Assembly: GCA_036898135.1 (NCBI GenBank)
Contig: CM072516.1
Coordinates: 58,799,676 to 58,863,675, forward strand
DNA: 64,000 nucleotides
Source of the DNA: Oncomelania hupensis
Lineage: Eukaryota > Mollusca > Gastropoda > Littorinimorpha > Pomatiopsidae
Direction: 5' to 3'
The notes beneath the pieces were generated by a model. It had not been told where the DNA came from and made no database searches. It saw only the letters and a list, made by a program, of their open reading frames with translations. Made by a program: the position numbers and the translations under genes. Positions 14,600 to 55,579 of this stretch are shown in pieces (position 1 is the first letter of the stretch; each line of letters opens with the position of its first letter).

Positions 14600-15170
14600 A
14601 ACTCACATATATACCCAGCCCATCACAAACAACGAAGTCCGACAAACCCATCACACAGGCCATTGGACAACATGATGACATGCTCACAATGGTGAAAAAA
14701 CGAAAACTCCGATGGTATGGCCACGTCAACAGAGCATCAGGTCTTGCAAAGACCATCCTGCAAGGCACGGTGTAAGGAGGCAGAAGAAGAGGGAGACCTC
14801 GTGGCGCAGTGGATAAGTCGCCGGTTTCCTATGCCGAAGGTTGCGGGTTCGATTCCCGCAAGGGGCGAACATATGTGACTTAGGTACCAGACTATTGAGG
14901 ACACCGAGGGTTTTCTCCGGGCACTCCGGTTTCCTCCCTCCCTTCAATAATGGTACTGGATGCAGTCAATACACAATTTTCAAAACTAGAAATTCGATTT
15001 TTTTTCGTCTTCCAATAGCGATCTCCCTGCCTTTACACCATCTGTTTGAGTGATGGATGTGTATTTGTTGTGTGTGTGAGGGTGGATGAGACAGGTGAGC
15101 GTGTATGTTGATACAGATCGCCGCGCTTTGAGCCTGATTGATTTGGGGAAAGGCGCGTACATAGCATCCT

Positions 15171-19963: not shown

Positions 19964-20085
<122 letters not shown>

Positions 20086-20339
20086 TCTCATACTACCTGG
20101 TTTCTGGCAACACGTGCATGTTACGCGACCTTACTTGTGTCAACATGGATAGGAAAGTGTCAACATTGAAATGTTGTCAGAAAACGGGTACACTTTTTTT
20201 GCTGTTTTGGATTACATGGGACATAAATCGTGTTTTTTTGACATGTTGACAAAAACCTGTAATATGAATGCAGTTAGTTCCCTTGCTACACTCTGTCGTG
20301 CTTCTGAGGATCCATATTAAGTTTTGATGAGACAGGCTA

Positions 20340-20422
20340 AGACTGAATCAGAATGAGAGCACGCGCTGTGAAGTGACGTCTTGTCTGTGATGTGTGACGT
20401 TGCACGAAGACACTTTCTCAAA
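20340..20422 (+). promoter_or_regulatory. CRE-type promoter region of the 20.4 kb gene
   Basis: TGACGTCT at 20374-20381 and TGACGT at 20395-20400 lie 20-50 bp upstream of an ATG in strong context. These resemble CREB/ATF sites. A homologous copy with three TGACGT motifs lies at 21755-21840. Confidence 0.5.
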
Positions 20423-23400
20423 ATGGCGGAGCTCAAATCGGTGAGTGGATATGTCTTTTGTAAATACTTATCAACGTTTAATTTGTTTTGAAATAACTTT
20501 AATAGTACGTAAAGCTCTGCTCCATAGTCTGCTCTCTTCACTTCTGACTTTTACGACCCTCCTGGCGCTCTTGTCTCATCTCTGTGGCCGCTTTGTGCGC
20601 TCCATATCACCGTCATCGCTACCTTCAGACTCAATCAATGCATTTCCTCCTTCTGAAAGTTGTGTATAATGTATATCAAAATGTAAGTAGGACGTTTAGA
20701 CTTTAGTTGGTTTTCAGCCTCGGGGATGCGGTTTTATTGTAGGTATATTTTCTGTCAGTACAAGTTGTTTTGTGTGGTGTTTGAATATATATCAAGTATT
20801 TTATTTTTTAGCCGAGATGGTGTGTGTATTATGTTCTTGACCATATACATTGAGTACAGTGATTCTTAATTACATATATAATAGAAAGGTCCCCGACTAT
20901 GACTGTTGAATATGAGTTTCTCGGGCGTTATGATTGCTTGGGGGAGTACATTTTTAGTTCAGCGCATCGAGTTACAATAGACTGAGACTCAAGTTGTTGG
21001 GTGGTGAGTTTCTCGGGCGTTATGATTGATTGGGGGAGTATATTTTTAGTTCAGCGCATCGAGTTACAATAGACTGAGACTCAAGTTGTTGGGTGGTGAG
21101 TTTCTCGGGCGTTATGATTGATTTGGGGAGTACATTTTTAATTCAGCGCATCGAGTTACAATATTGATTGATTGATTTATTGTTGCTTTAGGTCCAGCGG
21201 ACTCTTCCGAGCCAAATCAGGACCGGATCGAGTTACAATAGACTGAGACTCAAGTTGTTGGTTGATGAGTTTCTCGGGCGTTATGATTGATTGGGGGAGT
21301 ACATTTTTAGTTCAGCGCATCGTGTTACAATAGACTGAGACTCAAGTTGTTGGGTGGTGAGTTTCTCGGGCGTTATGATTGATAGGGGGAATACATTTTT
21401 AGTAATCATATTTGGTAATGTGGTCATTGTAACTCAGGAGGGAGAGTCAGCATGTATGTTACTTGATATATTGAATGGAGATGGTTTATATGTTTTGTTT
21501 GTTCGGTTTTCTTTTCCAGAATAAAGGATATTTCATGTGGGGTTTGGGGTGCGGATTCAAGATGTGGAGTTAAGGGGAAGGGGATAGGAATGGAGATAGG
21601 GGGCAGAATATTTGATAGTTACGTTATAGAGTTTAATTTTTATGCTGTTCAGTGTTTATACTGTTCAGTGTTTAGGGTATGCGAGTTCTTTGTTGCAATT
21701 GAGCCTCATTTCGGCGAGAAGGGGTGCCTTTTCGTCGAAAGGGGGAAGAATGTAAGGGTGAATCAGAAAGAGAGCACGCGCTGTGTTTAGGAAATGACGT
21801 CTTGTCTGTGATGTGACGTGCTGTGTGACGTTTGTGTGTGTCTGTTGGTTTACCTTCTCCCCAGAGAGCACGAAGACAGTGACTGGACTGTGGACACTGA
21901 CGGTGGACAAAGACAGTAGTTAGTTAGGTTAGACAGGTATGTTTGGAGTACAGAAGCGTTGTAAGTATGGTTTGTTATATTTGCAGTGAATGAGAGTGTG
22001 AAAGAAGGTGCAGGCAGAGGCGAGATTGGTGATACCCATGTTGCGTGTGGTGTGTGGTGGCGTTGTGTATCTTACAGTTGTAGCACCGCTCCTTTTACAC
22101 GTGCCATTCTACTGCATATTGACTTCTTATAACAACGGCCTCCCTTCAACCAAGTCCCCTATGCGCTAATGTGTCCGGGGACGTTAATCTAACAAACGTG
22201 AACGTGCAGGAATGCATTATATACTATGTAGCCATTCTTGCGTTGTAGTTGCACTTCAGTTTTGTAAAATATGAAGTTATAGTAAAAATTGACTTGTTAC
22301 AATTTGCCATTAATTTTTGGGAAATGCGTATTAAATATTAATATTGTAATGTTACTATGGTAAATATTGCCCCAATTAGAATTCCATAATCGTATAACGC
22401 ATTGTCTAAAGCAGTGTCGACATCCTGTCTGTACATGTCGATCCTCTTGTCTGCTGTATCAACATAAAGTTTTGCATGGAAAATACACTACAGGCTGTCA
22501 ACAATTGTCGACCTTGGCATTGTGAGGGTTAAATCAGAAAAGAAATATTACTTTTTTTTTAGATCTAAATGTCTAATCTGGCTGGGCATTGAATGCTCAA
22601 ATTTGAGATTTGTTGACTGGCTGTTGTATCTAATTTCTCTCAATATATTTTTAAATCGTTGAAGTCATTATAGACGTATATCTGGTTGTTTATTTTCTTA
22701 TGTTTAAACAGCGAGTTCCGAGGATAAAGTAGCAGCCTAGCTGGAAACATTACCGTTAGCCCGCAAAAAAGCAGCGCATCGGTCTGTTTCCACTGCCCCA
22801 TCTCAAACTGGTAGTGTACACTTTTTAGTGTTGTCAATTGGACCTGAGTTTGATCATCAGTAAATTATTTTCAGACTTTTACAAACACCTGTTATAATAG
22901 TGTACATAATGTTAATGCAATAACAGTAAGTCAAATGAAACATAAGCTGGCTGTTGTAGTATAGTCAAAGTTCAGCGCATTAACGGAGCAAGAAGCTTCT
23001 TCTGCTCTGATCCTCAGTCATGGAATTCCTTATATGTTATACAGTATGCTATACTTCCAACATTTAAAAAAAGGCAGTTGAAAATCTGTTTGTTTTTTCA
23101 AAGAGTATTTTATGTTACAGTTTCTGATCAGATAGCAGGCTCATCGATTTGTTTTTCAATTGTTGTAATAATTAATAATAATTTTGACTAGTTAAAAACA
23201 GGTAACTTTTTTTTTTTGGGGGGGGGGGGGGTGGGAGGGGGGGAGGAGGAGAGGGGAAGGGTGATGTGTTTCCAGCATGTGTGTATGGATTCTTCTGACT
23301 GGTTTTAAATTGAAATGTTTGTTTTTCTTGTAACCGGTCAAAATATTCAGTTATTATTATATTTATTATTATTATTATAATTATTATTTTTTTATAAATA

Positions 23401-26400
23401 ATTTTTTTTAAAATTTATTATTTATTTTTAAAATTTAATTAATTTATTTATTTTTTTATAATAGTTCTCGTTATTTGAAAACAGCAAGTCTACCGTACAT
23501 CTAGATGGGAGGCAAACAGATTTAAATTTTAATGTAAATCACTTGTCAGTCTTGTAAGTTTTTTGTTTTTTTTCTTTTCTGATGTACTGTGTAAATTGTT
23601 TTTAACAGCGAGTCCTAAGGAGAAAGTCGCAACAGTGTTGGAAACATCACATGAAGGGGACTGTACATGAGGCAGCATCATCATCTCTTTCCCCTAGCTC
23701 TGCTCTATCTTCAGTTGGTAAGGAGGTCAAATTTTCTTTAATGTATATGTACTTTAACTGACACTTATACTTTTTTCTCTCCATGTACATGTATTTTCGA
23801 TTAACTAAAACAAAGGTAACTGCACAGAACTGGAGGTAATGTTTTACTCTTTACAAAAATCAACAATGACATTCGAAAAGGCATGCGCACAGCAAAGGAG
23901 GACTGGATAGAAGATCAATGCCAGGAAATAGAGAACAATCTTAACAAATACAACAGCAAGAAGGTCTACAAGACTCTAAAGCGGCTGACAAGTGTTAAAC
24001 AGCCCAAGGTCTCCACGATCCAAAGCAAGTCTAGCATGTACCTTCAGCCTAATCAGCCATCCCAGCAAGGTCCTCCTGAAAATAATACTCAACAGGTTGA
24101 AACCCAAGCAGGTTCAGGGCAGGGCGAAGTACCACTGAACAGATTTTCAACCTCAGAGTAATCTGTGAGAAATACCTACAGCACCAACAACATATATACC
24201 ATGTGTTTGTAGACTTCAAAAAGGCGTTTGACCGAGTCTGGCATCATCGCATGCAGCTTTGTGGGCAACAATGAGAGTGTACAACATCAGCCCTAAAATT
24301 ATTGAAGTCATCAAACGCCCGTATGACAAGGCTAGCAGTGCAGCCCTCTACAACAGCGCCATCGGAAACTGGTTCAGAACAACCATCGGTGTGCGTCAGG
24401 GATGCCTACTCTCTCCAACACTTTTCAGCATCTTCCTAGAGCGCATCATTTCAAATGCCCTTGCAGATCACGAAGGCACAGTCAGCATAGGGGGAAGAGC
24501 AATCTCCAACCTTCGTTTTGCGGATGACATTGATGGATTAGCTGAAGAGGAACAAGAACTTGAACAGCTGGTACAGAGGCTTGACACCCCCTCCAGAGCC
24601 TATGGAATGGAAGCAGAGAAGACCAAAATGATGACCAACAACACCAATGGCATCAACACAGACATCAAAGTCCAAGACCAATCCCTCAACACAGTGCATA
24701 GCTTCAACTATTTAGGAGCCATTGTATCAGACATTGGATCCCGAGAGGAAGTCCTCTCCAGGATCGCACAAACAACTGCTGCCCTGGCGAGGTTGAAGCC
24801 CATTTGGAAAGACAGGACCATCAGTCTACATTCCAAGGTAAGACTGCTGCGCTCTGTTGTCATCTCCATCTTCCTACACGCTTGCGAAATATGGACCCTC
24901 ACAGCAGATCTACAACGAAGAATACAAAGCAGTGAGATGAGGTGCTACAGAAGACTTCTGGGCATTTCCTATACCCAGCACATAACCAACGACGAAGTCC
25001 GACAGACCATCACACAAGCCATTGGACAACATGATGACCTGCTCACAATGGTGACAAAAACGGAAACTTCGATGGTATGGCCACGTCACCAGATCATTAG
25101 GTCTTGCAAAGACCATCCTGCAAGGCACAGTGCAAGGAGGTAGAAGAAGAGGGAGACCGAAAAAGAGGTGGGAGGACAACATTCGAGAATGTACTGGTTT
25201 GACACTGAGCGAAACAATCAGGGTTCCTGAGGACTGGGAAAGATGGATTACGCTGGTTAAACGATCATCTGTGGTGCCCCTACGACCTCCTAGTTACGGG
25301 ATAGGATAGGATATATTACAACGCTTAATATTAATGTGCTTTGAAACCGCACTGTTTCTGTATTCGTTTTGATTTATGATGTTATAAGCCACAAATTTTG
25401 TTTCAAAATTGTCTTCTCATTTCCATCTAAATGCTTTAAATGTAGCCCCTTTTATGAACTTGGCAAACAAATTTATCTGAAATTCGGTAAAAGGAAAAAA
25501 GCTTAAGACATCCTGATACTATCATACTAACAAAACATTCCGACGTCTGCAATTCTGAAAATCAAAATGTGTATTCTAAAAATTGAGTGGAGTAATGTTG
25601 TTTGTTTTACATTTGCTCTTTGGTTTCTTTGGTAGATGATGACAATAAATCAAGCTCTGGATGGACCAGTGTTGGAGAGCAAATTGATTCTGGTAAGTCA
25701 TCACATCGGTTATTGAAAAAAATCAGCACTGTTTTTCTCTTGTCAAGAGCAAGAACATGGATCAATCTTTCCCAAAATGGCAACTGAAACCATTCGTACA
25801 TTTTTGTTTGAGAAGGAACATAAGTTTTTTCAAAATTCTGACGATCCTGGATTTTGTAGATGTTTGTCTGCTAAACTATTGAGTACTCATTGAGGCGCCT
25901 GTGCTCAGTTAAAAGTGATCTTTACAACAGTACAGTAAAGTATGTTTTTACAAATGTTAAAGCGCCATTTTAATCTGTCCAAAGAGTATCTATGTTTGAA
26001 CCACTGATCTGAAAATAGTTTCAACTTAATGCCACGGTTAAAAGAAGGTGAATCAGTTTCAGTGGTCGATGCTAGTGTCAAAACTAAGTGCCGTTGGCCA
26101 TGGTTAAACAAACAGAATATCACAATAGAGCGAGTTTGTTGTATGAAGTTAAGCCGTCCGAGTCTTCTGTATTGTTGGGTCTGCAGTTTGTGTTGACTAT
26201 TGCCCCCGTTCTGTGCAAGACATCGTGCAACACACCTATATGAACCAATTTCCAAGACATATTAACCTGAACTTTTCTTTAAATAAAAACTGGAACTGAC
26301 TGCTTTTTGTTACACATGTCTTTGTTTCTCAGATGTTATGTACACATAACTTATTTTATTATATAAATGTGTTAGTTAAATAGCAATCTTTAACCTCCTG

Positions 26401-26848
26401 ATTTAAACAGAACATTTTGCTTTACAATATTGAATATATATGTTTAAAATAAATAATTGCTGGCCCCTTCTAATTCCCTAGGTTTTAGGATTTATGCGTG
26501 TGTGTGCTAGAATTTGAAACCACAAAACATTGTGAACTTTAAACTAAATTGCCCCTGATCCCTCTGCATAGCATAATGATCAACAAAATGATCTCTTTTA
26601 TGAAAATATTCTTACCAGTGAGTAGCCTCACTACATTCTCTTTCAATGTTCCTTTTCAAGACTCTACTGCTTACATGTATATTGTCTCAAATTCTGTCGT
26701 TTTTTCATATTGCCGAGGTTCGTAATCGAATCCTAAAAGGCGGGTGGAGTATTAATGACACTTTGGGTCAAATACATGGGTTTTGTGTGTGTGTGCAGTT
26801 GAACATGCCAAAGCTGGGACTGGGAAAAGAAAATACGTCCTTGACTAG
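20423..26848 (+). CDS. Putative four-exon gene with C-X2-C motif beyond an early stop
   Basis: Model: exon 1 20423-20440 (MAELKS, ATG with A at -3 and G at +4, donor GTGAGT); exon 2 23609-23717 (acceptor TTTTTAACAG, codes RVLRRKSQQCWKHHM...SSALSSV, donor GTAAGG, phase 0 to 1); exon 3 25636-25692 (DDDNKSSSGWTSVGEQIDS, donor GTAAGT, phase 1 to 1); exon 4 from 26799 (acceptor GTGTGTGTGCAG, VEHAKAGTGKRKYVLD, stop TAG at 26846). All phases fit and every joined codon is open. Immediately after the stop the same frame continues KQYCIFCNKGQLALPN, a Cys-X2-Cys motif reminiscent of the zinc-finger-like N-termini of invertebrate proteins linked to Crypton-type recombinases. So the stop may be a disabling mutation. 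The exon structure is seen in the sequence; the family idea is weak inference. A LINE lies in intron 2. Confidence 0.45.
20914..21403 (+). repeat. 92 bp tandem repeat, ~4.5 units
   Basis: Units start at 20914, 21006, 21098, 21267 and 21359, each with GAGTTTCTCGGGCGTTATGA. Spacing is exactly 92 bp except for the third unit, which is longer by 77 bp because of a RepX insertion plus its 13 bp target duplication. Lies in the first intron of the putative gene. Confidence 0.95.
21163..21226 (-). mobile_element. 64 bp truncated RepX insertion with 13 bp TSD
   Basis: The RepX 3' end with an (AATC)n-type tail interrupts one 92 bp unit and is flanked by perfect 13 bp copies of ATCGAGTTACAAT (21150-21162 and 21227-21239). 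The empty-site sequence is present in neighbouring units, so both the insertion and its TSD are certain. This shows RepX moves by target-primed reverse transcription. Confidence 0.95.
21755..21945 (+). promoter_or_regulatory. Second copy of the CRE-containing region
   Basis: Shares GAGAGCACGCGCTGTG, TGACGTCTTGTCTGTGATGT and a GCACGAAGACA segment with 20340-20415 in the same orientation. It has three TGACGT motifs and ends at AGACAG followed by GTATGT, a possible donor. May act as an alternative promoter and noncoding first exon, or be only a segmental duplication. Confidence 0.4.
22078..22195 (+). repeat. RepY dispersed repeat
   Basis: Homologous to 29205-29325 from a GTTGTAGCA-type start through GACTTCTTAT and AAGTCCCCTATGCGC to TGTCCGGGGACGTTAATCTA. 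Confidence 0.7.
22712..22810 (+). pseudogene. Decayed duplicate of exon 2
   Basis: Preceded by TTTAAACAG and beginning CGAGTTCCGAGGATAAAGT, it matches exon 2 at 23609 (CGAGTCCTAAGGAGAAAGT, then TGGAAACAT in both). Translation in the exon 2 phase gives RVPRIK, stop, QPSWKHYR, stop, so it cannot be used as exon 2 is. A GTAGTG follows the end. It is probably an old tandem exon duplication. Confidence 0.6.
23860..25317 (+). pseudogene. LINE reverse transcriptase fragment (copy 2)
   Basis: Begins with a pre-RT segment (DIRKGMRTAKEDWIEDQ near 23870), then an internal deletion, a frameshift near 24250, and a long open stretch at 24259-25143 with RT motifs VRQGCLLSPTLF, RFADDIDGL (catalytic Asp pair intact) and LGAIVSDIGS. 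The frame breaks again near 25060. The 3' end reads GTTACGGGATAGGATAGG, the family's GGATA-repeat tail. Endonuclease is absent, so it is not autonomous. It lies in an intron of the putative 20.4 kb gene in the same orientation. Confidence 0.85.
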
Positions 26849-27060
26849 AAGCAATACTGCATCTTCTGCAACAAAGGACAACTGGCTCTCCCAAACATTT
26901 TCTTATGTGATACAGACACAGAATTTACCATCTTGTCTTGATGCCTGCTGTGTGGGTGGGGTTGATTTAGCAAGATTGTCATCTTCAAACACAGAACAAT
27001 CTGGGGTTTCTCCACTGTCAATTTTGGCAAGCAATCTTCCAACTTTGGTGATCTCAGTGG
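25318..27060. other. Intronic and flanking AT-rich sequence
   Basis: Apart from exons 3 and 4 of the putative gene I see no coding sequence or repeat here. Confidence 0.4.
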
Positions 27061-27067
27061 TACTTTC

Positions 27068-27068
<1 letters not shown>

Positions 27069-27123
<55 letters not shown>
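27069..27123. repeat. (ATA)n trinucleotide repeat
   Basis: About 18 units, followed by TATCGCGCAAATCTCA resembling SINE tails of the kind ending in TATAGCGC. Confidence 0.95.
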
Positions 27124-27125
<2 letters not shown>

Positions 27126-27569
27126 ATGGTACTTATATCGCGCAAATCTCACATTGTGACTCATTGCGCACCCACTCGCATTCATCCATTGTACATCCTG
27201 TCATTACAACACATATGGCATACTATTACAATGAAATAAAAACAACAATGCAGGCGATAGTACTCTTTTTCAATGTTCAGAGAGTGGCCCATGTGATTTG
27301 CTAGCAATTTCTGCTCATTGGGTGACAAATCAAACAGTTGAGTGATTGTAGCTCCATACTTTCTGCATTTCGTCGATGTGATCAACTCTGGCTTCCGTAG
27401 CCCAATATCTGATGTGAGTATCCAGGTAACCGTTCACAGACTTAGATGCAAAGAAAAATGGATTCGATACAGGTATAGCTACATCAGTCATCATTTCAAG
27501 AAGAATGTACAGAGATTCTTTCACCTGGGGAGGCAGGGAGTAAGGGGGGCTCACACGGATTAGTTAGTT

Positions 27570-28146
27570 CTTCATTTTAAGCCCTAGTGCTCCCGTTTCT
27601 CCTGTGAGGTCGTTTATCGCCCCCCCCCCCCCTCCCGCCCCCTCCTCCTTCGACAGTTGATGGTTCGGGTGCATTGCCGCACCCCACAGTCAAAGAGACC
27701 GCTAGGGATTCGAACCCTTAAGTGACAGGTTCTGCGCCTCCCGATGACAGTAGAGATCCTGGGCTGCCTTACTCAGGCTCGAAGGCTTGGCGGAGAGACT
27801 TGTTCACACACCGTGGCTGGGCTTGTCGTTACGGTTCATAGCTTGGCTGTGGGAAATCCGTCTTCTCCCGGTCACACAGCCAGTTCACAGTCCGACTCCA
27901 AGGCCCCTGCCTCGAGCCCAAATAGTACGCGGGACGGAATGTCGTAGACCCCCCCCCTCCCCGCACCCCGGCTCTGGCTCCCCTGTGGAAATAGCGGAGC
28001 ATTCCTTTCCTAAGGGACGCCGTCTGTCCGTTTCCGAATTTATTAATCGGCATGATAAGCCCATAGCGGAGTTTGTCTCCATCTACAACCAGCGTTCGGC
28101 TAAAGATGTAGTCTATACATTACGGCTGAGACTCAAGTCCGTTTTA
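27570..28146. other. GC-richer unclassified sequence upstream of RepX
   Basis: Locally GC-rich with C-tracts at 27619 and 27950. Contains GGGATTCGAACCCTTAAG, a B-box-like inverted motif. It may belong to a longer form of RepX, but no second copy in the window confirms that. Confidence 0.4.
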
Positions 28147-28714
28147 CCCCCGTTGGGGTGCCGGGGGTTTCAGTATAAATAGTATCCTCACTTTCTGGAA
28201 ATTTAGTGCTTTAAATTCCCACTGTCGTTGTCTTTCTCATTTGCTCTAGTCTTTCTCATTCCTGCTCTGTTCTATCAATCTTCTATACTATCTTCTTCTT
28301 CGCTAGACCAGTCATCTACTTTTTTTTTTGAAAAACTTTCCGGGACAACACGCCTTATTTGTGTATGAGGTCTGTTGGATCAGCTTGGGAATATTGGACG
28401 CTTTCTGCCAGGTGGTAGATGTTATTATTTAGCAATGTATGCATTTTATATGTATGTGTTTTGTTGATAATTTATAATGATGTTTGTATTCTATTTTGTT
28501 TTTGTAAACGGGTGTTCGATAAATTAGAGTACAGCCTCAGCGTCCCCTGCGTGGGATGTCTTTATTGTAAAGTGACTGGCTTGTGGAGAGCGTTCAGTTT
28601 TACCACTAGGGTTGTTTCAGCAGATTTTTTATGCGGATCAGGGGTTGTCCGGTCCTGATTTGGCTCGGAAGAGTCCGCTGGACCTAAAGCAATAATCATG
28701 TAATGTAATGTAAA
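28147..28714 (+). repeat. RepX interspersed repeat, longest copy
   Basis: Runs from the GTTGGGGTGCCGGGGG region through AGTATAAATAGTATCC, GGTCTGTTGGATCAGCTTGG and a conserved body to GGTCCTGATTTGGCTCGGAA and an ATGTAATGTAATGTAA tail. It encodes a minus-stop-free frame from 28365 to 28658 that resembles frames in the other two long copies. Class unknown; LINE 3' end or SINE-like. Confidence 0.75.
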
Positions 28715-29204
28715 GTCCCTTTTGACGGAGGCTGCTCTCAAGTCTATGGGCGTGGTAATCCGAGACAATCCTGACCCAGTGGTGGGACCGGATCCTACCT
28801 AAACTGGCCTTCCCGCGTGCCCGCTGGCTGCCGCTCTGGTTCAAGCTTGATCTGGTGCAGTTTTCTTTTTAACCCGCTTTTAATCTTACTCGGACGTGTT
28901 TTATCATTAATTTTAGATTAAACTTCTATAATTTGATTGTTTTTATATAATATAGGCCCTATACTGTTCCGTGCAATAACCCGGCAGACCTGGTCTGTCT
29001 TCATATAAAAATTATTTTATCTCTCCTTAGACATTAAATAATCCGCTCACTCTGCCCTCCTAGTCGCCCTTTGGCCCTCCTCCCTCCCTCTGCTATACCT
29101 TTGGCGGCCTTGTCTTGGCGTCCCTTTTGCCACCCTTGTCACATCTTCACTCTACATTATTGACGCCGTCTTCCTTCCGATTCAACGCATCTTCCTGCTG
29201 GTTG

Positions 29205-29325
29205 TTGTAGCAGCTTTTGCGCTCCTTCTTCATTTGACTCCATTCTGCAAAACGACTTCTTATTACATCGGCCCTCGTTCATCCAAGTCCCCTATATGCT
29301 TATGTGTCTGGGGACGTTAATCTAC
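29205..29325 (+). repeat. RepY dispersed repeat
   Basis: Second good copy of the family at 22078-22195, ending TGTCTGGGGACGTTAATCTA. Confidence 0.7.
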
Positions 29326-29734
29326 TTGCCTGACTGCCTGCCTAACCTCAGTGGGGAATTGCCTAACAACAGACAGGAAAGGCCAAATAATTTGGCAATT
29401 GCCTTACTAGGGTTTAGGCAGAAATTGCCTTACAGACAGAAATTGCTGTACAGGTGAAGATATTTGTAGATTAGTTATTGCCAAGAATACGTTTGTATGA
29501 ATATGTGTTTACTGATGGCAGGCATGTGTTCACGCTTTCCTGATGTGTGCTACATTTTCTTGCTTAATCACATAAGGCACAAATTGTCTAATGTACATGA
29601 AGTATGGTTGGCGGTTCTCCACCTGTCATTATGTACAATGGTATGTAGTATGCATTGCAGTTTTGCTATACTAGACAACCACTTACTACCAACATCATCG
29701 TCTGGGTTTGCTGTCAGTTCCCCCCCCCCCCCCC

Positions 29735-30045
29735 CCCCCCCCCCGTTCATTTCCTCCCCGGTCATTTCCTCCCGTCAATTTCCCACCTGGTCAATTCCCC
29801 CCCAGGAAACTTACTCCCCGGTTATTTCCCCCCGTTCTCAACTTCATCCCCATAGTCACTTCCCCCCATTTTTTTTACTCCCTGGTTATTTCCCCCCGTA
29901 ATCAACTTCAGCCCCATAGTCACTCCCCCCCCCCCCCCCCATTTTTTTTACTACCCGGTTATTTTCCCTTGTTATTAATTTCATCCTCAAAGTCACTTCC
30001 CCCATTTTTTTACTCCCCATTTATTCCTCACTCTCATTCCCATCT
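29735..30045 (-). repeat. Left arm of a low-complexity inverted repeat
   Basis: C-rich units such as GGTCATTTCCTCCC, GGTTATTTCCCCCC and CAACTTCATCCCC correspond to the reverse complement of 30895-31150. Pro-rich frames here are by-products. Confidence 0.75.
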
Positions 30046-30386
30046 CAATTAAAATATTGTTGTTAGTTGTGTTGACATTTTTTTAGGGATCACTGAAAAT
30101 CACTGAAAATGAACATAGCTCACTGTACTCACTATTTCTGTCTCCAATTTCTCATTTCTATTCACATTTTCAAAAGTCATTGCTTCAAAATCGCAACAAT
30201 ATGGCAGAGGTGACACACATAGAAATTGGTACATTCATGACATCGACAAAAGGCAAGACAATGATTGCGGACACTATCAGAAGCCATTAGCAGGAAACAA
30301 ATAACGTTTGAAATATGAGTTCCACCATGACACAAAATGCAAGGCAGCAGTGCACGTGATGGTAGTGTTACTTATTGTATTAGTAG

Positions 30387-30812
30387 TGAGGCACGGTGGC
30401 CTAAAGGTAGAGCTTTGGCTTGCGGATCTGAAGGTCCCGGGTTCGAGCCCAGGCCGGGGCATTGTGTTGTGTCCTTGGGAAAGGCACTTTACTCTGTTTC
30501 CTACTCCTTCGGATGAGAGTATAAACCGAGGTCTAGTCTGTGTCGCATACATTCCACCATAACGGACTTTAAAGATCCTGACGCTCATGTCCTAGACGGG
30601 TGAGTGCCGGTGACAAGAACACACCCAGCATGCACTTAGGTCCTTCTCCCCATCCCTGGCTGCCCAGGATTGTGCTCAGTTGTACGGGCGTCAGACCATG
30701 CGCCCAAAGGCTGCGGGTGGGCGTCTCGGGCGGCTTGAGTTAGATCCTGTATCGGCCAGCGCCTTGAGCAGCTCTTGAGCTGGTAAAGCGCAATATAAGA
30801 ACGATTAGTAAT
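30387..30812 (+). repeat. SINE B, full-length copy
   Basis: tRNA-like head with A box TGGCCTAAAGG and B box GGGTTCGAGCCC, body with GATCCTGACGCTCATGTC and GGATTGTGCTCAGTTGTAC, tail with CGGCCAGCGCCTTGAGCAGC and GCGCAATATAAGAAC. About 420 bp; closely related to 61866-62280. It sits between the two arms of the inverted repeat. Confidence 0.85.
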
Positions 30813-30894
30813 AGTAATACCGGGTGCTAATACGCGCTTTACATCGAATGATATCAAACTCAAAGAGCGGCGACCTATACCAACACATACACGC

Positions 30895-31150
30895 TCACGA
30901 GGATGAAATTACGACAGGGGGGAATTTTGTGGGGAGGAAAATCCTGGGGGCACATAATCCCGGGGATGAAATTGTGACAGGGGGGAATTTTCTCGGGAGG
31001 ATAAGTCCTAGGGGGAAATAACCCTGGGGATGAAATTGCGACAGGGGGGAATTTGCTCGGGAGGATCTATCCCAGGGAGGAAATGATCTGGGGGGAAATG
31101 ACCGGGGGGAAATGACCGGGGAGGAAATCACTGGGGAGGAAATGACCGGA
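30895..31150 (+). repeat. Right arm of the low-complexity inverted repeat
   Basis: G-rich units such as GGGGATGAAATTGCGACAGG and GGGGAGGAAATGACCGG, inverted relative to 29735-30045. Confidence 0.75.
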
Positions 31151-31544
31151 TACCCATCGTCTGTGGAGTTTTGATATATGCTTCAGATGTGTTGGCTTCC
31201 AATCATTGCCTATATATATGCAGTTTTCCATGTTTGAGAATTGCTATTTTGGAGACGTTTATAAACATTTTGAAGAAAAACTGTTCAAATGAATCATTGC
31301 TTATCTGAAGTTGTTTGTTGTTGTTGTTGTTTTAAAGTGAAGCAACGTGTGTTCATTTATGTGTGTACTGATGTGACAGTGACAGATCATAGATGTGAGA
31401 CAAGTTTCATGCTTCCCTGATGAGGGACCACGGTTTCTTGCCTTCTGATGTACATGTAATGTCTTACAAAACATTTGTATGTGTATGTTTTCTAAAGGTA
31501 TTATGGAGACATTTAATGTGCAAGTGTGATTGTTTTCGGAACAC

Positions 31545-31795
31545 CCCAGTTGGAGTGCTGGGGGGAGGGGGAGGAAAGGGGGGGGGGGGTCAGTATAAAT
31601 AGTATCCCCACTTTCTGGAAATTTAGTGCTTTAAATTCCCACTGTCGCTGTCTTTCTCCTTTGTTCTTTCTCATTTCTACTCTGTTCTCTATCAATCTAC
31701 TATACTATCTTCTTCTTTGCTTGACCAGTCACCTACCTTTTTTCGTGAAACTCTTCCGGGACAAAACTCCTCATTTGTGTGTGGTCTGTTGGATC
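31545..31795 (+). repeat. RepX, left part split by a LINE
   Basis: Matches 28147-28385 up to GGTCTGTTGGATC, where the LINE tail begins. The continuation is at 33308. Confidence 0.85.
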
Positions 31796-33307
31796 CTATC
31801 CTATCCTATCCTGTCCCGTAACCCGAAGGTCGTAGGGGCACCACAGATGATCGTTTAACCAGCATACTCCATCTTTCTCTGTCCTCAGCAGCCCTGATGG
31901 CTTCGCTGTGTCAAACCAGTCCATTCTCGAATGTTGTCCCCCCACCTCCCCTTCGGTCTCCCTCCTCCTCCACCTCCCTGCACCGTACCTTGCAGAATAG
32001 TCTTTGCAAGGCCTGATGATCCGGCGACGTGGCCACACCATCGGAGCCTCCGTTTCCCCACCACTGCTAGCGAGCCATCGTGTTGTCCAACGGCCTGCGC
32101 GATGGCCTGTCGGACCCCGTCGCTGGCGACGTGTTGGGTACAGGAAATGCCCAGAAGTCCTCTGCAGCACCCCATCTCCATGCCTTGCACTCCTCGCTGG
32201 AGATCCGCCGCGAGGGTCCATGCCTCGCAAGCACATAGGAAGACGGAGACGACAAGGGAGCGCAGCAGTCCCACCTCGGAATGCAGACCGACGGCCCCGT
32301 CTCTCCAAATGGGCCCCAGCCCCGTCAGGGCAGTAGCCGCCCGCGCGACCCCGGAGAGGACCCCACGCCGGGACCCACCGTCCGACACAACGGCTCCCAA
32401 ACATCCGAAGCCACGCACCGCGCCGAGGGACCGGCCCCGGACCCCGATGTCCGCACCGACGCCACCGGTGCCGCCGGCCACCACCCTGGTCCTCTCTGCA
32501 CCCACCTCCACCCCACAGGCTCCGGAGGTGGTGTCAAGCCTCTGCACCAGCCGCCCAAGCTCCCGCTCCTCTCCAACCAATCCATCGACGCCATCTGCAA
32601 AACGAAGACCGGAGACCGCCCCACCCCCCACGCCGACCGCGCCCCCATGGTCCGCAAGAGCATCCGACACGATGCGCTCCAGGAAGATGCCGAAGAGTGC
32701 CGGAGAGAGCAGGCACCCCCGACGCACACCGACCGCTGCTCCGAACCAGCCCCCGACGGCGCCGCCGCGGAGGACCGCACCGGCAGCCCCGCCACACAGG
32801 TCCCCGATGACTTCAACAACTGTAGGGCTGACGCCGTACACCCCCACCGTTGCCCACAGAGCCGCACGCCAGACTCGGCCAAACGCCCCCCCCGAAGTCC
32901 ACGAACACACGACACAGATGCCGCTGGTGCCGCAGGCATCTCCCACAGACCACTCTGAGGCCGAAAATCTGCCCAGCGGCACCCCGCCCCGCCCCGAATC
33001 CCGCCTGCCCTTCAGCCACGACCTGCCCAGCCCGGGGCCTCAACCCGCTGAGCACTACCTCCAGGAGGACCCCGCCGGGATAGCCGACGAGGCCGACGGT
33101 CCGGCAACCCTCACACTCCCGAAGGCCACTCTCCCCGGGAAGAGTGACGACAAGCGACCGGGTCCACGGCACAGGCCACCCCCCACCCCGCCAGATCCCG
33201 CCACAGACAACGGCGAGGGCATCAACCATCGCCTCTCCCCCCGCCTGCAGCAGCCCCGCGGGCATGCCGTCCACCCCCGCCGACCTCCCCCTCCCCAGCG
33301 CTTGCAC
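31796..33307 (-). pseudogene. A-to-G hypermutated LINE reverse transcriptase copy (copy 3)
   Basis: Minus-strand copy of the local LINE family, 3' tail (GGATA)n at the left, 5' truncated at 33307. An uninterrupted 365-codon frame spans 32982-31885 and a preceding segment is open from 33307. Domain order is intact (SAGVDGMPAGL, FVDFGGGVW, VRRGCLLSPALF, RFADGVDGL, LGAVVSDGGS, LRWCGHVAG), but almost all differences from siblings are A to G on the sense strand: Lys to Gly/Arg, Asn to Gly/Ser, Ile to Val, Thr to Ala, Tyr to Cys. The catalytic FADD has become FADG, so the enzyme is dead. A-to-G change cannot create stop codons, which explains why both strands stay open; the 558-codon plus-strand frame at 31931-33607 is an artefact. 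The last ~130 bp near the tail is almost unedited. Confidence 0.9.
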
Positions 33308-33697
33308 TATTGGACGCTTTCTGCCAGGTGGTCACTGGGGCTTCCTATGATGTTATTATTTGGCAATGTAGGCATTTTATATGTATGTGTTTTGTTGGTA
33401 TTTTATAATGATGTTTATATTCTATTTTGTTTTTGTAAACGGGGGTTCGATAAATTAGAGTATAGCCTCAGCGCCCCATGCGTGGGATGTCTTTATTGTA
33501 AAGTGACCGGCTGGTGGAGTGCCTTCAGTCTTACCACTAGGGTTGTTTCGGCAGATCTTTTATGCGGATCAGGGGCGAGTTCTCTTTCAGCGAAGTTGTG
33601 GTCTTGATTTTGTGGATCTGGTTCGGCTACACTTGTCCTGATTTGGCTCGGAAGAGTCCGCTGGACCTAAAGCAATAATCATGTAATATAATGTAAT
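33308..33697 (+). repeat. RepX, right part after the LINE insertion
   Basis: Resumes at TATTGGACGCTTTCTGCC and continues to CTGGACCTAAAGCAATAATC and the ATGTAATATAATGTAA tail. About 12 bp of RepX between the two halves (GCTTGGGAA region) is missing, so the LINE insertion was accompanied by a small deletion. It also has a ~55 bp insertion near 33575-33640 relative to 28630. Confidence 0.85.
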
Positions 33698-33699
33698 CC

Positions 33700-34410
33700 G
33701 TGTGAGTGAAGTGAGATAAATATAATTTATTTTCATTATCATAAAAGTTATTAAAAAAATTTAATTCTTTTAATACTTTTATATTTTTATGCTATTGACT
33801 CATTTTGAAAAAATGTTGAATGTTCCCTTGATCTCATGATTTTGGAAGCCATTTTGGATTTTCATAATTACTTAATAATTTTTGCCTAAAGTTCTGAGCT
33901 TATTTTGTAATTGTTCTAAAGCTTTTACAATGGATGATATTCATTACATTATATGTTTGGCTTATTTGATTTATAACTGTAAAGTTTTGCATTTGTCATT
34001 AATTCAAGTATCATCTTCATGTTGTTCATAATTTTTTTTTTATTCAATTTTAAAAATTCTGTTTAGCCTTGGTCTTTATTGTTTATTTATAGAGGGTTGC
34101 TTGCATGATCAATTGCTTGATTGATGATGTAAATCTCATGCAAACTCTGAATAAAATCAAATCATCCCAACCAAGTGTTCGTCTTATTGGACAAAGACTG
34201 CGCGATATCACTTTCTACTTTTAATCACTCATATGCACACACCCTGCAGCATTTATAATGTATTATTATTTAGATAACAAAAAAAACCAATTCTTTTAGT
34301 ACAAACAAATTGCCATAGCTTTTGGGCTTAAGTAATAACATCTTTGACTTTGACAAATAAATACATGTTTTTTTTTTTTTCTTACTTTTGTTATAATTGT
34401 TTTGATCATG
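33700..34410. other. AT-rich, no gene recognised
   Basis: Strongly AT-rich with no open frame of note. Nothing to annotate. Confidence 0.5.
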
Positions 34411-34411
34411 T

Positions 34412-34477
<66 letters not shown>
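34412..34477. repeat. (CT)n microsatellite
   Basis: About 32 CT units. Confidence 0.95.
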
Positions 34478-34485
<8 letters not shown>

Positions 34486-34520
34486 TAATTGTATGTGAAG
34501 TGAAAAATACCACAGCAAAC

Positions 34521-35153
34521 TATCCTATCGTATCCTATCCTATCCGGTAACTCGGAGGTCGTAGGGGCACCACAGATGATCGTTTAACCAGCGTACTCCA
34601 TCTTTTCCTGTCCTCAGCAACCCTGATTGTTTTGCTCAGTGTCAAACCAGTCCATTCTCGAATGTTGTCTTCCCACCTCTTTTTCGGTCTCCCTCTTCTT
34701 CTACCTCCTTGCACTGTGCCTTGCAGGAAGGTCTTTGCAAGACCTGATGATCTGGTAACGTGGCCATACCATCGGAGTTTCCGTTTTTTTCACCACTGTG
34801 AGCAGGCCATCGTGTTGTCCAATGGCATGTGTGATGGTCTGTCGGACTTCGTCGTTGGTGATGTGCTGGGTATAGGAAATGCCCAGAAGTCTTCTGTAGC
34901 ACCTCATCTCAATGCTTTGTATTCTTCGTTGTAGATCTGCTGTGAGGGTCCATGTTTTGCAAGCATATAGGAAGATGGACATGGGAGCGCAACAGCCTTA
35001 CCATGGAATGTAGACTGATGGTCCTGTCTTTCCACATTGGCATCAACCTCGCCAGGGCAGCAGTTGTTTGTGCCATCCTGGAGAGGACTTCCTGTCGGGA
35101 CCCATAGTCTGATACAATGGCTCCTAAACATTTGAAGCTATGCACTGTGTTGA
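34521..35153 (-). pseudogene. LINE 3' fragment (copy 4a), left arm of inverted pair
   Basis: Starts with the reversed tail TATCCTATCC and codes on the minus strand for the RT C-terminal region (SFKCLGAIVSD, RTISLHSMVRLL, RRLLGISYTQHITNDEV), with frameshifts near 34990 and 34800. It joins 35152 head-to-head at a 2 bp microhomology. Confidence 0.85.
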
Positions 35154-35998
35154 AGGCACAGTCAGCATTGGGAAAAGAGCAATCTCCAGCCTTCGTTTTG
35201 CGGATGGCATTGATGGATTGGCTGGAGAGGAGCAAGAACTTGAACAGCTGGTACAGAGGCTTGACACCACCTCCAGAGCCTATGGAATAGAAATAAGTGC
35301 AGAGAAGACCAAAATTAATTATGACCAACAACACCAATGGCATCAACACGGACATCAAAGTCCAAGGCCAATCCCTCAACACAGTGCTTAGCTTAAAATA
35401 TTTAGGAGCCATTGTATCAGACAATGGGTCCCGACAGGAAGTCCTCTACAGTATCGCACAAACAACTGCTGCCCTGGCGAGGTTGAAGCCAATGTGGAAA
35501 GACAGGATCATCAGCTTACATTCCAAGGTAAGACTGCTGCGCTCCCTTGTCATCTCCATCTTCCTATATGATTGCGAAACATGGACCCTCACAGCAGATC
35601 TACAACGAAGAATACAAAGCATGGGGATGAGGTGCTACAGAATACTTCTGGGCATTTCCTATACCCAGCACATCACCAACGACGAAGTCCGACAGACCAT
35701 CACACAAGCCATTGGACAACACGATGACCTGCTCACAGTGGTGAAAAAACGGAAACTCCGATGGTATGGCCACGTTACCAGATCATCAGGTCTTGCAAAG
35801 ACCATCCTGCAAGCACAGAGCAAGGAGGTAGAAGAAGAGGGAGACCAAAAAAGAGGTGGGAGGACAACATTCGAGAATGGACTGGTTTGACAATGAGCGA
35901 AACAATCAGGGTTTTTGAGGGCAGGGAAAGATGGATTACGCTGGTTAAACGATTATATGTGGTGCCCCTACGACCTCCGAGTTAGGGGATAGGATAGG
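35152..35998 (+). pseudogene. LINE 3' fragment (copy 4b), right arm of inverted pair
   Basis: Begins in the RT palm (GTVSIGKRAISSLRFADGIDG; the FADD motif has become FADG here by one change) and runs to the family tail GGGGATAGGATAGG. Frameshift near 35310. The final ~630 bp is the inverted complement of 34521-35153, so a transcript through both arms would fold into a long hairpin with a ~210 nt loop. Confidence 0.85.
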
Positions 35999-36609
35999 TA
36001 TTAATGTATGTACTATTATTACTGCGATTATTTGAGAAGGGAGATGTAGCAGATCTTGACTTGGAACTGTATGTGTGTGTTTTATTTCCATGTGCGTCAT
36101 GGTGTTTATTTTACGTCATTGTATGTAGGAAGTGTGACGTAGGAAGAAAGAAGGAGAAGAAAAATAAAAAAAACGAATCAGCTAGCAAGCTGCCGTCTTC
36201 ACGGTCTTTTACAGTTTGAATGCATATCTTCCACAGTTCCAAGAACATGTTTCATTTTATTTTTAAAAAAATATTGTTACGTATTTATAATGACAGTTGT
36301 CCATAGATTAATCTTAAATGTATTTGTTCAATCAGCATGCCCGTTATAAATATATAAATATATATAGTGTATATGAGTCGCATAACCGTTTTTTGACGAC
36401 ATATGTCACAGACAGGGTGTTTTGGCAACCTGTTTGTTTCTCAAATTTCTCGAGGTGTAATATATATATTTTTAATATTGACCCATATTTATAATCACAG
36501 ATGTCCATTTAACAGTCTGACATCAAATTTGATTTTATATGACCAGTAGAAATAGGTGTTGCCAGAAAACGGTGCCAGAACACATGTCGCGGTAAACCAT
36601 GTATTATGC

Positions 36610-36770
<161 letters not shown>

Positions 36771-41603: not shown

Positions 41604-42239
41604 GGCCTCGTGGCGCAGTGGATAAGTCGCTGGTTTCCTATGCCGAAGGTCGCGGGTTCGATTCCCGCAAGGGGCAAACGTATGTGACTTAGGTACGAGA
41701 CTATTGAGGTCACCGAGGGTTTTCTCCGGGCACTCCGGTTTCCTCCCTCCCTTCAATAATGGTACAGGACGCAGTCAATATAAAAATTTCAAAAATAAAA
41801 ATTAGATTTTCTTTCCGTCTTCTAATAGCGATCTCCCTGCCTTTACACCACCTGTTTGAGTGATGGCCTCGTGGCGCAGTGGATAAGTCGCTGGTTTCCT
41901 ATGCCGAAGGTCGCGGGTTCGATTCCCGCAAGGGGCAAACGTATGTGACTTAGGTACGAGACTATTGAGGTCACCGAGGGTTTTCTCCGGGCACTCCGGT
42001 TTCCTCCCTCCCTTCAATAATGGTACAGGACGCAGTCAATATAAAAATTTCAAAAATAAAAATTAGATTTTCTTTCCGTCTTCTAATAGCGATCTCCCTG
42101 CCTTTACACCACCTGTTTGAGTGATGGATGTGTATTTGGTGTGTGAGGGTGGAAGAGACAGGTGAGCGTGTATGTTGGTATAGATCGCCGCGCTTTGAGC
42201 CTGAATGATTTGGGGAAAGGCGCGTATAGCATCCTGTAT
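41604..42239 (+). repeat. Dimeric SINE A with 261 bp tandem duplication
   Basis: Two copies of the first 261 bp of SINE A (41604-41864 and 41865-42125) lie head to tail and read as identical, each with A box TGGCGCAGTGG and B box GGTTCGATTCCC. Only the second continues into the 3' part and ends at an (AGT)n run at 42244-42284. The first unit was cut at CTGTTTGAGTGAT. Confidence 0.9.
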
Positions 42240-46252: not shown

Positions 46253-47384
46253 GAAAAATACCTACAGCACCAACAACATCTATATCATGTGTTTGTAGAC
46301 TTCAAGAAAGCGTTTGACCGAGTCTGGCATGCAGCTATGTGGGCAACCATGAGAGTGTACAACATCAGCCTTAAAATAATTGAAGTCATCAAAAGCCTGT
46401 ACGACAAGGCTACCAGTGCAGCCCTCCACAACAGCGCCGTAGGAACCTTGTTCGGCGTGCGTCAAGGATGCCTACTCTCTCCAATACTCTTCAACATCTT
46501 CCTAGACGCATCATGTCAGATGCCCTTGCAGATCACGAAGGCACAGTAGTATAGGGGGAAGAGCAATCTCCAAACTCCGTTTTGCGGATTACATTGATGG
46601 ATTGGTTGGAGAGGAACAAGAACTTGAACAGCTTGGTACAGAGGCTTGACACCACCTCCAGAGCTTATGGAATGGAAATAAGTGCAGAGAAGACCAAAAT
46701 GATGACCAACAAAACTAATGGCATCAACAGTTACACGGACATAAAGTCCAAGGCCAATCCCTCAACACAGTGCATAGCTTCAAATATTTAGGAGCTACTG
46801 TATCAGATAATGGGTCACGACAGGAAGTTCTCTCCAGGATCGCACAAACAACTGCGGCCCTGACAAGGTTGAAGCACATTTGAAAAGACAGGACCATCAG
46901 TCTACATTCCAAAATAAGCCTGCTGCGCTCCCTTGTCATCTCCTTCTTCCTATACGCTTGCGAAACATAAGCCCTCACATGAGATCTATAACGAAGAATA
47001 CAAAGCATTGGAATGAGGTGCTACAAAAGACTTCTGGGCATTACCCAGCGTATCACCAGCAACGAAGACCGACAGACCATCACACAAGCCTTTAGACCAC
47101 ACGATGATATGCTCACAATGGTGAAGAAACGGAAACTCCGATGGTATGGCCGCGTCACCAGAGCATCAGGCCTTGCAATGAACATCCTGCAAGGCACGGT
47201 GCAAGGAGGAAGAAGATGAGGGAGACAGAAAAAGAGATGGGAGGACAACATTCACGAATGGACTGGCTTGACACTGAGCGAAGCCATGAGGGTCGCTGAG
47301 GACAGAGAAAGCTGGAGTACGCTGGTTGAACGATCATCTGTGGTGCCCCAACCATCTTTGAGTTAGGGGATAGGATAGGATAGG
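46253..47384 (+). pseudogene. 5'-truncated LINE reverse transcriptase (copy 6)
   Basis: Begins EKYLQHQQHLYHVFVDFKKA and AFDRVWHAAMWATM, then RT motifs VRQGCLLSPILF. A deletion after the LSPILF block shifts the frame and FADD is broken (FADY). Several stops follow. C-terminal motif KKRKLRWYGRVTRA near 47120, tail GGGGATAGGATAGGATAGG. It serves as a useful unedited reference for copy 3. Confidence 0.85.
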
Positions 47385-53601: not shown

Positions 53602-54196
53602 TATTTGAAGTAGTATTCATTCTTGACCCACTGACTTCAATTTGCTAGTGTGATTACAGCTAGATTTAACACCGGGCGGACGATTGAACAGATTCTGAGA
53701 TAGGGATAGATTTTGTACACAATGTGACGGATAATAATAAGAATACGAGACCGAAATTTACGTAGCAACTTAGTCCAGTTGTTAGCATAGTTTCGTCCGG
53801 GATAAATAACACCTCAAGAATATTTATGTACAGAACTGTTCAGTCTCAGAATCTATTAAGTTAGCCGAACTAGTTTACCGTTATACGCAGATAGCATTCA
53901 TTACAATGTGTAAGAATATCTTGCTGATTTCATTCGCTTCGGCACCTTCCTTATCAAACCCATAATCTCCAAGCATCTTTAAAGGAGATTCAGATTTATG
54001 GTCAAAAGTCACTAAAGGCGATGATAGCACAGGTACAAGCCAAACACACACACACAAACAAACCAACAACTGAAACACATGCAATCGTTAATAAACATTT
54101 AGTTTAACTGTTTCAAACGCAATGCCTTTCAACTTTTGAACGCACATTTCCAAACTACTAGGTTATTATTCTAAATAATACAAACCATTCTCGTAC

Positions 54197-55348
54197 CTGC
54201 TCTGGCAGACCGTTCAGACGGGAGGTGGGGGCATCGACGACGATGCCACCAGAAATCTTGAAGCGTTGTTGAAGACGCGCCAGAGATATCTCTGTCGCGG
54301 ACGCAGCATCAATGACCAGCGCTCTGGTCGGCATTGACGCTGGGACCGAAAGGTCAACATGGTCACTGTCCCCTGACAAAGAAGGCGCGTAGATGGGGGC
54401 GTCGTAGGTATCAGCCACCGATGACGGAGACGGAGGCAATTGCTCCGTGTTTTTGGCTTTCTTGATTCTGCTGCCGCCAGACTTTCTGGAACGGCTAGCT
54501 CGCGGCTTCGCGTCCTGGGCTTTGGACGTGGGCTTGCTGATACGGCCGCTTTCAGTGGTAACTTCGGACGCTTTGGTCTTCTTGTTCTTGCGCGGACGAT
54601 ATTTGTAGTCCGGGTATTGAAGCTTGTGAAGCTCTTTCAGATCTTCCGCCTTATTCTTCCAGTATTGTTGTTTGTCGGGCTCCAAACCTTTCCAAATTTT
54701 AGCAGAGTATTTTGAGATTTGCGCATTATGAAGGTTGGGGTTGGCTTCGCGGAGATCGTTGCGCATCTTTGTGGCGAAAAGCATAAAGGCGTTCATTGGC
54801 CTTCTGACGTGGTCGTTCTTGGGTGCCTTCCTAGGCTTTGTCACGTCGGTGTAAGGAGTGGTGGACTTTTCTAGAATGTCGCTAGCGTCCATGTCCATAT
54901 GATTGCTGTTCATGTACTGCGTGTGCTGCATGATCGTATCGGGATCCTCCAAGTCCTCCACATGAATCTTGCGGGCATCGACTGCTGCTTCAGGAACACG
55001 ACTAGACAGCTCTGTATCGTGTGAGAAGTTGCTGCACGTGCTGATGCCATCGTCCAGATTCTTCCCCACGGAAAAACACATCGAACTTGGGATTGCATAT
55101 TTTGCCATAAACTGCATTTCCATCGATGAATGCAGCATCTGTGTTGGTCTCCGACCATCAGTTTGTCTCTCACTGCTTGTTTCAAGAAAGTTGAAGACGC
55201 TGAAATCCGCAGGCCCAGGACTGGGAGAGTCTACACTACTAGGCTGACCTGGACTGTTTGTTTCTGACATGTCAGTATGGAAGGGGCTGCTGCCTGTGGA
55301 ATTACGAGACATAGGCCGTCGCTCCATTGCGGGATATGACGCATACAT
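54197..55348 (-). CDS. SOX-type HMG-box transcription factor, first coding exon
   Basis: A 384-codon exon starting MYASYPAMERRPM (ATG at 55348, A at -3; a second ATG seven codons on has a strong context) and ending at a consensus donor CAG|GTACGA (54197/54196) in phase 0. The N-terminal part is Ser/Pro/Met-rich. Residues ~179-256 form one HMG box: HVRRPMNAFMLFATKMR, NPNLHNAQISKYSAKIW, KELHKLQYPDYKYRPRKNKK. HVxRPMNAFM, NAxIS and YPDYKYRPR are SOX signatures, but LFATKM replaces the usual VWSRGQ, so this is a divergent member; I do not assign a SOX group. A Lys/Arg-rich nuclear localisation-like tail follows. It is expected to bind and bend AT-rich DNA in the nucleus. Frame upstream of 55348 lacks another ATG. 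Confidence 0.85.
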
Positions 55349-55437
55349 TGTAGTATAGGAAAACTCAAAAAGTTTTTCAACTAAAAAAACAGTCAAGTTA
55401 TCAAGCACAGCAACAGTAGAAAATAGTCCCAGTGTCG

Positions 55438-55579
55438 TCAATCACAAACTTTTTCAGTCACAGAATAATCTGCCTTGGAAAACTCCACACTTGCTACATA
55501 ATAGCTGAACACTGCCACAGTATACATGTATGAAGTCCAGTTTGGGCTTTTCCCTTTTCAGTACTGCAGAAAAGGACAT
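55438..55579 (-). promoter_or_regulatory. Two overlapping upstream ORFs in the SOX-type 5' leader
   Basis: uORF1 starts at 55579 and stops at 55454 (41 codons); uORF2 starts at 55527 and stops at 55438 (29 codons, another frame). Both end before the main ATG at 55348. If the leader begins near 55625 both are in the mRNA and could limit translation. Confidence 0.55.

Follow-up and report, generated by a model that had tools for sequence, protein, structure and literature searches.

A LINE insertion in the genome of Oncomelania hupensis, here designated H, is very probably the DNA record of one LINE RNA that was hyperedited by ADAR, reverse-transcribed and fixed in the genome. It occupies positions 31796 to 33299 on the minus strand of the window (the whole 64,000-nt stretch of DNA that was analyzed) as a 5'-truncated insertion of 1504 nt with a (GGATA)n tail. 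Compared with L036, a young copy from elsewhere in the genome, 289 of its 486 A positions have become G, while all other substitutions come to just 18 in 1518 sites. By type, there are 289 A>G, 2 A>C, no A>T, 5 G>A, 5 C>T, 5 T>C and 1 G>T. Ordinary divergence, which would have to account for the 289 A>G changes with so few others beside them, is rejected on these counts, in line with the initial annotation, which had judged the change too dense for it. The same annotation had set aside APOBEC-type and RIP-type change, and rightly so, as the direction is wrong for both: clustered G>A on the sense strand and clustered C>T are each represented by only 5 sites.

The one-way change had been described as running through about 1.37 kb (31938 to 33307), with a 60-nt comparison as its example, and both descriptions were reproduced. 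Between the minus strand of 32761-32820 and the plus strand of 46376-46435, 17 of 21 A positions read G, one reads T and three are kept; the remaining differences are one G>A and two C>T. Over the full span, 193 of 309 A sites in the majority sequence of the other window copies are G in H, alongside 3 A>C, 1 A>T, 5/222 G>A, 8/247 C>T and 6/186 T>C. Against L036, the span has 442 A, of which 289 are G, 151 are kept and 2 are C. The limits are now refined to the insert itself, with changes from 33296 to 31940. When H is divided into 60-nt bins, the changed fraction is 0.44 to 1.0 in the body, 0.2 and 0.32 in two bins reaching 31921, and then 0.

Seven other LINE fragments in the window serve as comparison copies, and none has an A>G bias: each compared with the rest, they show 1 to 12 A>G and 5 to 16 G>A. 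Those on the plus strand are C1 (24040 to 25313), C2 (46253 to 47383), C3 (37705 to 38619), C4 (35151 to 36001), C6 (14610 to 14798) and the short fragment C7 (15249 to 15303), while C5 (34524 to 35156) lies on the minus strand, head to head with C4, to which it forms an inverted arm of 628 bp at 93% identity. Similarity between H and fragment C1 rises from 74% to 94% once A and G are merged. A thresholded scan of the window for pairs with one-way change returned H, plus pairs among 2.7-3.0, 7.5-8.6, 18.3 and 63.0-63.7 kb that resemble simple repeats. The CpG observed/expected ratio outside H is 0.72.

Other features of the window include a 427-aa open frame with an HMG box (54158 to 55441, minus strand; Pfam HMG_box, 1.5e-18), which may be a divergent gene of the SOX type. 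Three tRNA-Arg(CCT)-like predictions (14796 to 14867, 41605 to 41676 and 41866 to 41937) may be tRNA-derived SINEs rather than tRNA genes. The sequence at 58076 to 58987 is a simple repeat, CT-rich and strongly skewed, in which several reading frames stay open for about 250 to 300 codons.

The boundaries of H were set by alignment of the LINE family and by comparison of both junctions with an empty site, a paralogous copy of the target repeat without the LINE (28163 to 28713, minus strand) that aligns to the flanks of H. At the 5' join, about 12 nt can be aligned to the LINE as well. The A-to-G changed stretch (31940 to 33296, minus strand), delimited by the 289 changes against L036 and the changed fraction per bin, begins with an A within 4 nt of the 5' junction and ends inside the LINE. 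The final 144 nt of the insert, tail included (31796 to 31939, minus strand), have no A>G change at all, with none of 28 A sites changed relative to the majority of the window copies and 42 A retained against L036. Both flanks are parts of one other repeat, read on the same strand, and stand at background level: A>G is 4/123 and 5/126 against two paralogues in the 5' flank (33300 to 33700), and 6/91 against a paralogue in the 3' flank (31578 to 31795). With the flanks at background and no A changed 3' of 31940, the change is confined to the LINE and stops before the LINE's 3' end.

H begins about 1.84 kb into the 3.36-kb L036, hence its 5' truncation, and shares the (GGATA)n 3' tail with fragments C1 and C2. 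No target-site duplication was found when H was compared with the empty paralogue, and one target base is missing. Some LINE insertions lack such a duplication; its absence here weighs against a typical insertion, not against the identity of H as LINE sequence. Reverse transcriptase homology, by which the element is recognized as a LINE, is present in fragment C1, which matches the RVT_1 profile at 4.6e-12. The score of H (4.1e-4, 20.5 bits) is below the cut-off of 29.6, as expected after editing. The LINE is presumably RTE-like. Named relatives of its protein come from tube worms, a sea slug, a sea spider, a crab, fish and amphioxus. In IMG/VR and GTDB contigs, no relative of the LINE was confirmed.

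To establish how H relates to the rest of the genome, the O. hupensis assembly (1.45 Gb, 428 contigs) was searched with it, and 40 places out of 14,435 candidates were scored. H is not single copy: 24 of the 40 places are H itself or copies at 97 to 100% identity (20 whole, 4 in two pieces), so that at least 24 exist in the genome and its G positions are shared at no fewer than 23 other places. The initial annotation had named a GC-rich LINE subfamily with these same G positions as the finding that would overturn its reading, and the sharing itself is thus real, but the copies are not an autonomous subfamily. The 20 whole copies (L005 to L024) carry the flanks of H, 19 of them on both sides and L013 on essentially one, which makes them duplicates of one insertion inside a larger element. 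The reverse transcriptase of H is ruined, with FADD changed to FADG, and 30 of 85 residues that are invariant in 12 family members are altered, compared with 0 to 11 in leave-one-out controls. By codon position, the changed fraction is 0.70, 0.59 and 0.59; the third is not favored, and there is no mark of selection. A GC-rich subfamily shaped by ordinary divergence, biased gene conversion or selection would explain the many near-identical places, yet it is contradicted by the shared flanks, by the damage to the protein, by the codon positions and by the 18 other changes set against 289 A>G, and we give it very little credence.

The larger element is a multicopy carrier at 20043 to 36754, about 16.7 kb long, in which H and fragments C1, C4 and C5 are passengers. 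Copies of fragment C1 occur within about 5 to 10 kb of many H copies. Homology to a carrier copy on contig C7, compared outside 25.9-30.4 kb of the window, stops near both ends, and the approximate limits fall in (TA)n and (GA)n tracts. The carrier has direct repeats near 20912-21403 as well as several LINE fragments; no transposase was recognized by eye in its long frames. Among the 20 H copies, 273 of the 289 changed sites are G in every one, and per-site rates of later change are 0.18% for A>G, 0.17% for G>A, 0.15% for C>T and 0.56% for T>C, indicating that the spread of the carrier added no A>G surplus over G>A. The commonest change among these copies (L006 to L024 together with H itself at 31796 to 33299 of the window) is T>C on the sense strand, with 34 cells. 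That edited cDNA entered the assembly as an artefact of library or assembly is next to impossible, given that H stands at 24 or more places on many contigs, that the 20 compared copies pass without a break into flanking DNA and each bear their own scattered mutations, and that the insertion has a matching empty site.

All 16 of the scored places that are not H (L025 to L040) were compared with L036. Ten carry A>G patches, at positions that differ from copy to copy, with 41 to 269 A>G against 4 to 19 G>A. The other six (L032 and L035 to L039) show no A>G surplus, five of them having 4 to 10 A>G and the sixth, L036, being the standard. L025 has 154 A>G among 1018 A (26 other changes); almost all of its A>G lie in the 3' half of the 3.2-kb stretch compared, with the final 250 nt spared. 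L026 has 269 of 733 (68 other changes) and is accompanied by L027 with 87 of 436 (14 others), L028 with 97 of 505 (36 others), L029 with 41 of 1051 (46 others) and L031 with 68 of 373 (22 others). Four further copies look like an older subfamily: L030, with 216 of 1051 (93 others), mostly 5' and in the middle; L033, with 61 of 1051 (96 others) and one main patch of 300 to 400 nt; L034, with 64 of 1052 (89 others) in several patches; and L040, with 88 of 521 (47 others). As these four have 47 to 96 other changes and an excess of A>G in common, part of their A>G is probably inherited, but the patches and the A>G surplus remain beside their G>A counts of 11, 19, 13 and 10, respectively.

Edited sites are shared somewhat more often than expected. 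Over 55 pairs of copies, 1,877 shared sites were observed against 1,602 expected within 5' class and 130-nt bin, and 978 against 874 when the four older copies are left out. Ten of the 55 pairs reach z >= 3, five of them within the older four and one being H with L025 (134 against 122). Descent of one patch would give near-complete sharing, and the fractions of 0.14 to 0.67 between non-H copies therefore argue against it; for H alone, the high edit rate makes descent hard to judge. The edited copies are mostly separate events with site preferences, and the modest surplus fits preferences beyond the 5' base, plus descent in the older group. In the last 150 nt of the 11 edited copies, 28 of 439 A cells are changed, 9 of 41 in L027, so that this end is spared in most copies, not strictly. 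The differing patches suggest RNA duplexes of varying extent, which may have come from antisense LINE RNA or from inverted pairs like C5 and C4, and the sparing of the 3' end in most copies suggests that the reverse transcriptase would take up an RNA only if its 3' end is readable.

As a variant of the ADAR reading, reverse transcriptase may have switched between edited and unedited LINE RNA, in which case position 31940 would be a template switch and not the end of a duplex. The sharp-ended patches inside long copies such as L025 and L033 would suit such mosaics. In H itself, by contrast, the changed fraction falls stepwise (0.48, 0.2, 0.32, 0) and not at one point, and the mostly spared 3' end recurs in other copies. 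We regard template switching as rather unlikely.

The bases flanking each changed A carry a signature of their own. The initial annotation had noted avoidance of a 5' G in a short segment, and the whole stretch bears this out: A is changed in 26 of 74 cases after G and in 160 of 223 after other bases (Fisher P = 3e-8; block permutation P = 5e-5). By 5' neighbor, the changed fraction in H is 0.81 after A, 0.76 after T, 0.62 after C and 0.29 after G (P = 8e-17). The base at offset -2 also matters (P = 0.001), and the 3' neighbor has no significant effect in H alone (P = 0.65). Pooling the 11 edited copies, restricted to bins with at least 15% A>G, gives 564/981 (0.57) after A, 163/309 (0.53) after T, 369/1083 (0.34) after C and 155/812 (0.19) after G. 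A 5' G is avoided in each of the 11 copies, with P values from 8e-17 to 0.045. On double-stranded RNA, ADAR is known for the order A or T over C over G at the 5' side, and this is the order found both in H and in the pooled copies. On the 3' side, G ranks highest in the pool (405/860, 0.47; others 0.34 to 0.38), and among triplets AAG is best (211/326) and GAT worst (16/123). This 3' G differs from the 3' A preference that PMC5625713, in the part considered here, reports for hyperediting in invertebrates.

First-strand cDNA copies the RNA, and A>G on the sense strand accordingly points to inosine in the LINE RNA or else to deamination of the second DNA strand. In the latter case, a DNA adenine deaminase (ADAT2/3, a TadA-like enzyme, or ADAR acting on DNA) would have edited the sense strand during or after integration, for which there is a possible precedent in amphioxus, whose ADAT2/3 is reported to deaminate DNA in PMC10354150. 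The sense strand would likewise read A>G. Against this, the changes start at the LINE junction with the flanks at background, several copies have sharp-ended internal patches, and the 5' order is that generally known for ADAR on double-stranded RNA; ADAR on first-strand cDNA would yield T>C on the sense strand, for which H has only the five sites. On account of the patches and the neighbor order, deamination of the DNA is most improbable. Direction, density, 5' neighbor, strand and confinement to a retrotransposon all fit ADAR acting on the sense RNA before reverse transcription, as had been proposed at the outset. The comparison suggested along with that proposal, of other copies, all 12 substitution types, flanking bases and a genome search, likewise came out in favor of ADAR.

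Genes for such an enzyme are present. The ADAR deaminase profile PF02137 gave 18 matches above cut-off at five places in the genome (contig:position C7:7.82M, C7:45.0M, C9:58.95M, C11:44.85M and C15:39.13M; L041 to L046) and none in 14 control genomes. One of these places reads TAPCGDARIF and GERLLTMSCSDK; we take the APCGDAR-type sequence and GERLLTMSCSDK to be ADAR motifs. In L044, a LINE fragment lies close to the ADAR domain exon. From the neighbor preference and the presence of these genes, we infer that the enzyme was probably ADAR rather than a look-alike.

A source of double-stranded LINE RNA can be proposed within the window. In C5 (minus strand) and C4 (plus strand), LINE 3' parts stand head to head over 34524 to 36001, and a transcript across them might form a long hairpin that would be a candidate ADAR substrate and source of LINE double-stranded RNA. 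Editing of H through pairing with its neighbor C4 was considered and rejected, as C4 spans the unchanged 3' end of H and not its changed 5' half.

We propose that a sense LINE transcript paired with antisense LINE RNA over most of its length and that host ADAR would then have deaminated some 60% of its adenosines while leaving most of those behind a G. The 3' end of the RNA would have escaped editing; the LINE reverse transcriptase would need such an unedited end to start target-primed reverse transcription. The enzyme, supplied by an intact element or made before editing, would have copied inosine as if it were G, and a repeat would thereby have received a 5'-truncated insertion, presumably in the germ line. 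The locus would later have joined the larger element, which may have moved as DNA, and H would thereby have been copied to at least 24 places.

The LINE family is very abundant. A 35-nt LINE word in which R replaces every A has 15,217 matches in the genome, and the reversed word, used as a control, has none. Several copies (L035 to L039) are about 99% identical, which indicates that the LINE was recently active. Among the first 100 of the word matches, all from the first 8 Mb of contig C1, 93 have no A>G, 7 have one and none has more, implying that heavily edited copies are a small minority. The 16 non-H places were chosen by similarity to H, and the proportion of 10 in 16 therefore overstates the frequency of editing.

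The bias also recurs among proteins related to that of H. A search with the H protein finds relatives with the same bias; between P0192 and P0166, 54 of 56 residue differences are reachable by A>G and none by G>A. In all, 7 of 277 related database proteins (P0192, P0209, P0193, P0211, P0129, P0157 and P0121) score for A>G-only change, and none of the 277 reaches the score in any of the 11 other directions. Since stop codons are lost through A>G, an edited copy has a better chance of being predicted as a protein than a copy changed otherwise; part of the protein set was also found with edited queries. The seven show that the bias recurs in related LINE families, which need not belong to another species.

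Dense one-way change confined to repeats has parallels. RIP of fungi is such a case; the likeness lies in the dense one-way change in repeats, and RIP makes C>T, of which H has five. APOBEC3 editing of retrotransposons and endogenous retroviruses, as treated in the portion of PMC2873906 considered here, likewise leaves clustered one-way changes made by a host deaminase, but as G>A on the sense strand, for which H has 5 sites against its 289 A>G. That portion counts A>G clusters in retrotransposon DNA as a comparison for G>A (49 against 114, mouse IAP) and assigns RNA editing only to RNA traces. Closer to H are the ADAR-hypermutated retroviruses. ADAR-type A>G hypermutation is described in part of PMC8586724 for avian leukosis virus, RAV-1 and HTLV-2/STLV-3, and in part of PMC8025556 for three BLV proviruses that have at least seven changes within about 70 bp. 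In both these viruses and H, clustered A>G is found in a reverse-transcribed element and attributed to ADAR acting on its RNA. From what the two sources give, the retroviral cases are proviruses of infectious viruses, in cell culture or somatic, whereas H is a LINE in a genome assembly with 289 changes in 1.36 kb and further patched insertions in the same genome. The hyperediting of repeat RNA in metazoans that PMC5625713 describes in the part considered shares the change type, the 5' G depletion and the repeat targets with H, but it was found in RNA reads, and the result in H lies in the genome. Suppression of L1 and Alu by ADAR1 is reported as independent of editing in the portion of PMC5974252 considered.

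The initial annotation knew of no description of such change. This is too broad, as ADAR hypermutation of retroviruses is on record, and it stands for LINEs: in a search of the open-licence PMC literature by titles and abstract openings, no report of ADAR-edited LINE copies fixed in a genome was found. There is thus a retroviral precedent, and the LINE case is new as far as the searched literature goes.

A-to-I editing is generally regarded as altering RNA alone, and the edited LINE copies point to a route from RNA editing to inherited DNA. They would constitute a fossil record from which the strength of germ line editing, its motif and the extent of the duplexes could be read without RNA, and with 15,217 matches to one LINE word the question becomes countable in this genome. 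The spared 3' end amounts to a testable statement on what the LINE reverse transcriptase needs. Beyond the single event in H, we lean toward a wider role for ADAR as a germ line mutator here and perhaps in other lineages, in which duplexed LINE RNAs would be hyperedited, those with a readable 3' end would still be retrotransposed, and the editing would repeatedly be written into the genome and then spread with the copies as passengers of other mobile elements. If this is true, the route would be a counterpart for A>G of what APOBEC3 does with G>A, and the 3' end that most copies retain unedited would delimit the smallest signal in the RNA that the LINE reverse transcriptase has to recognize.
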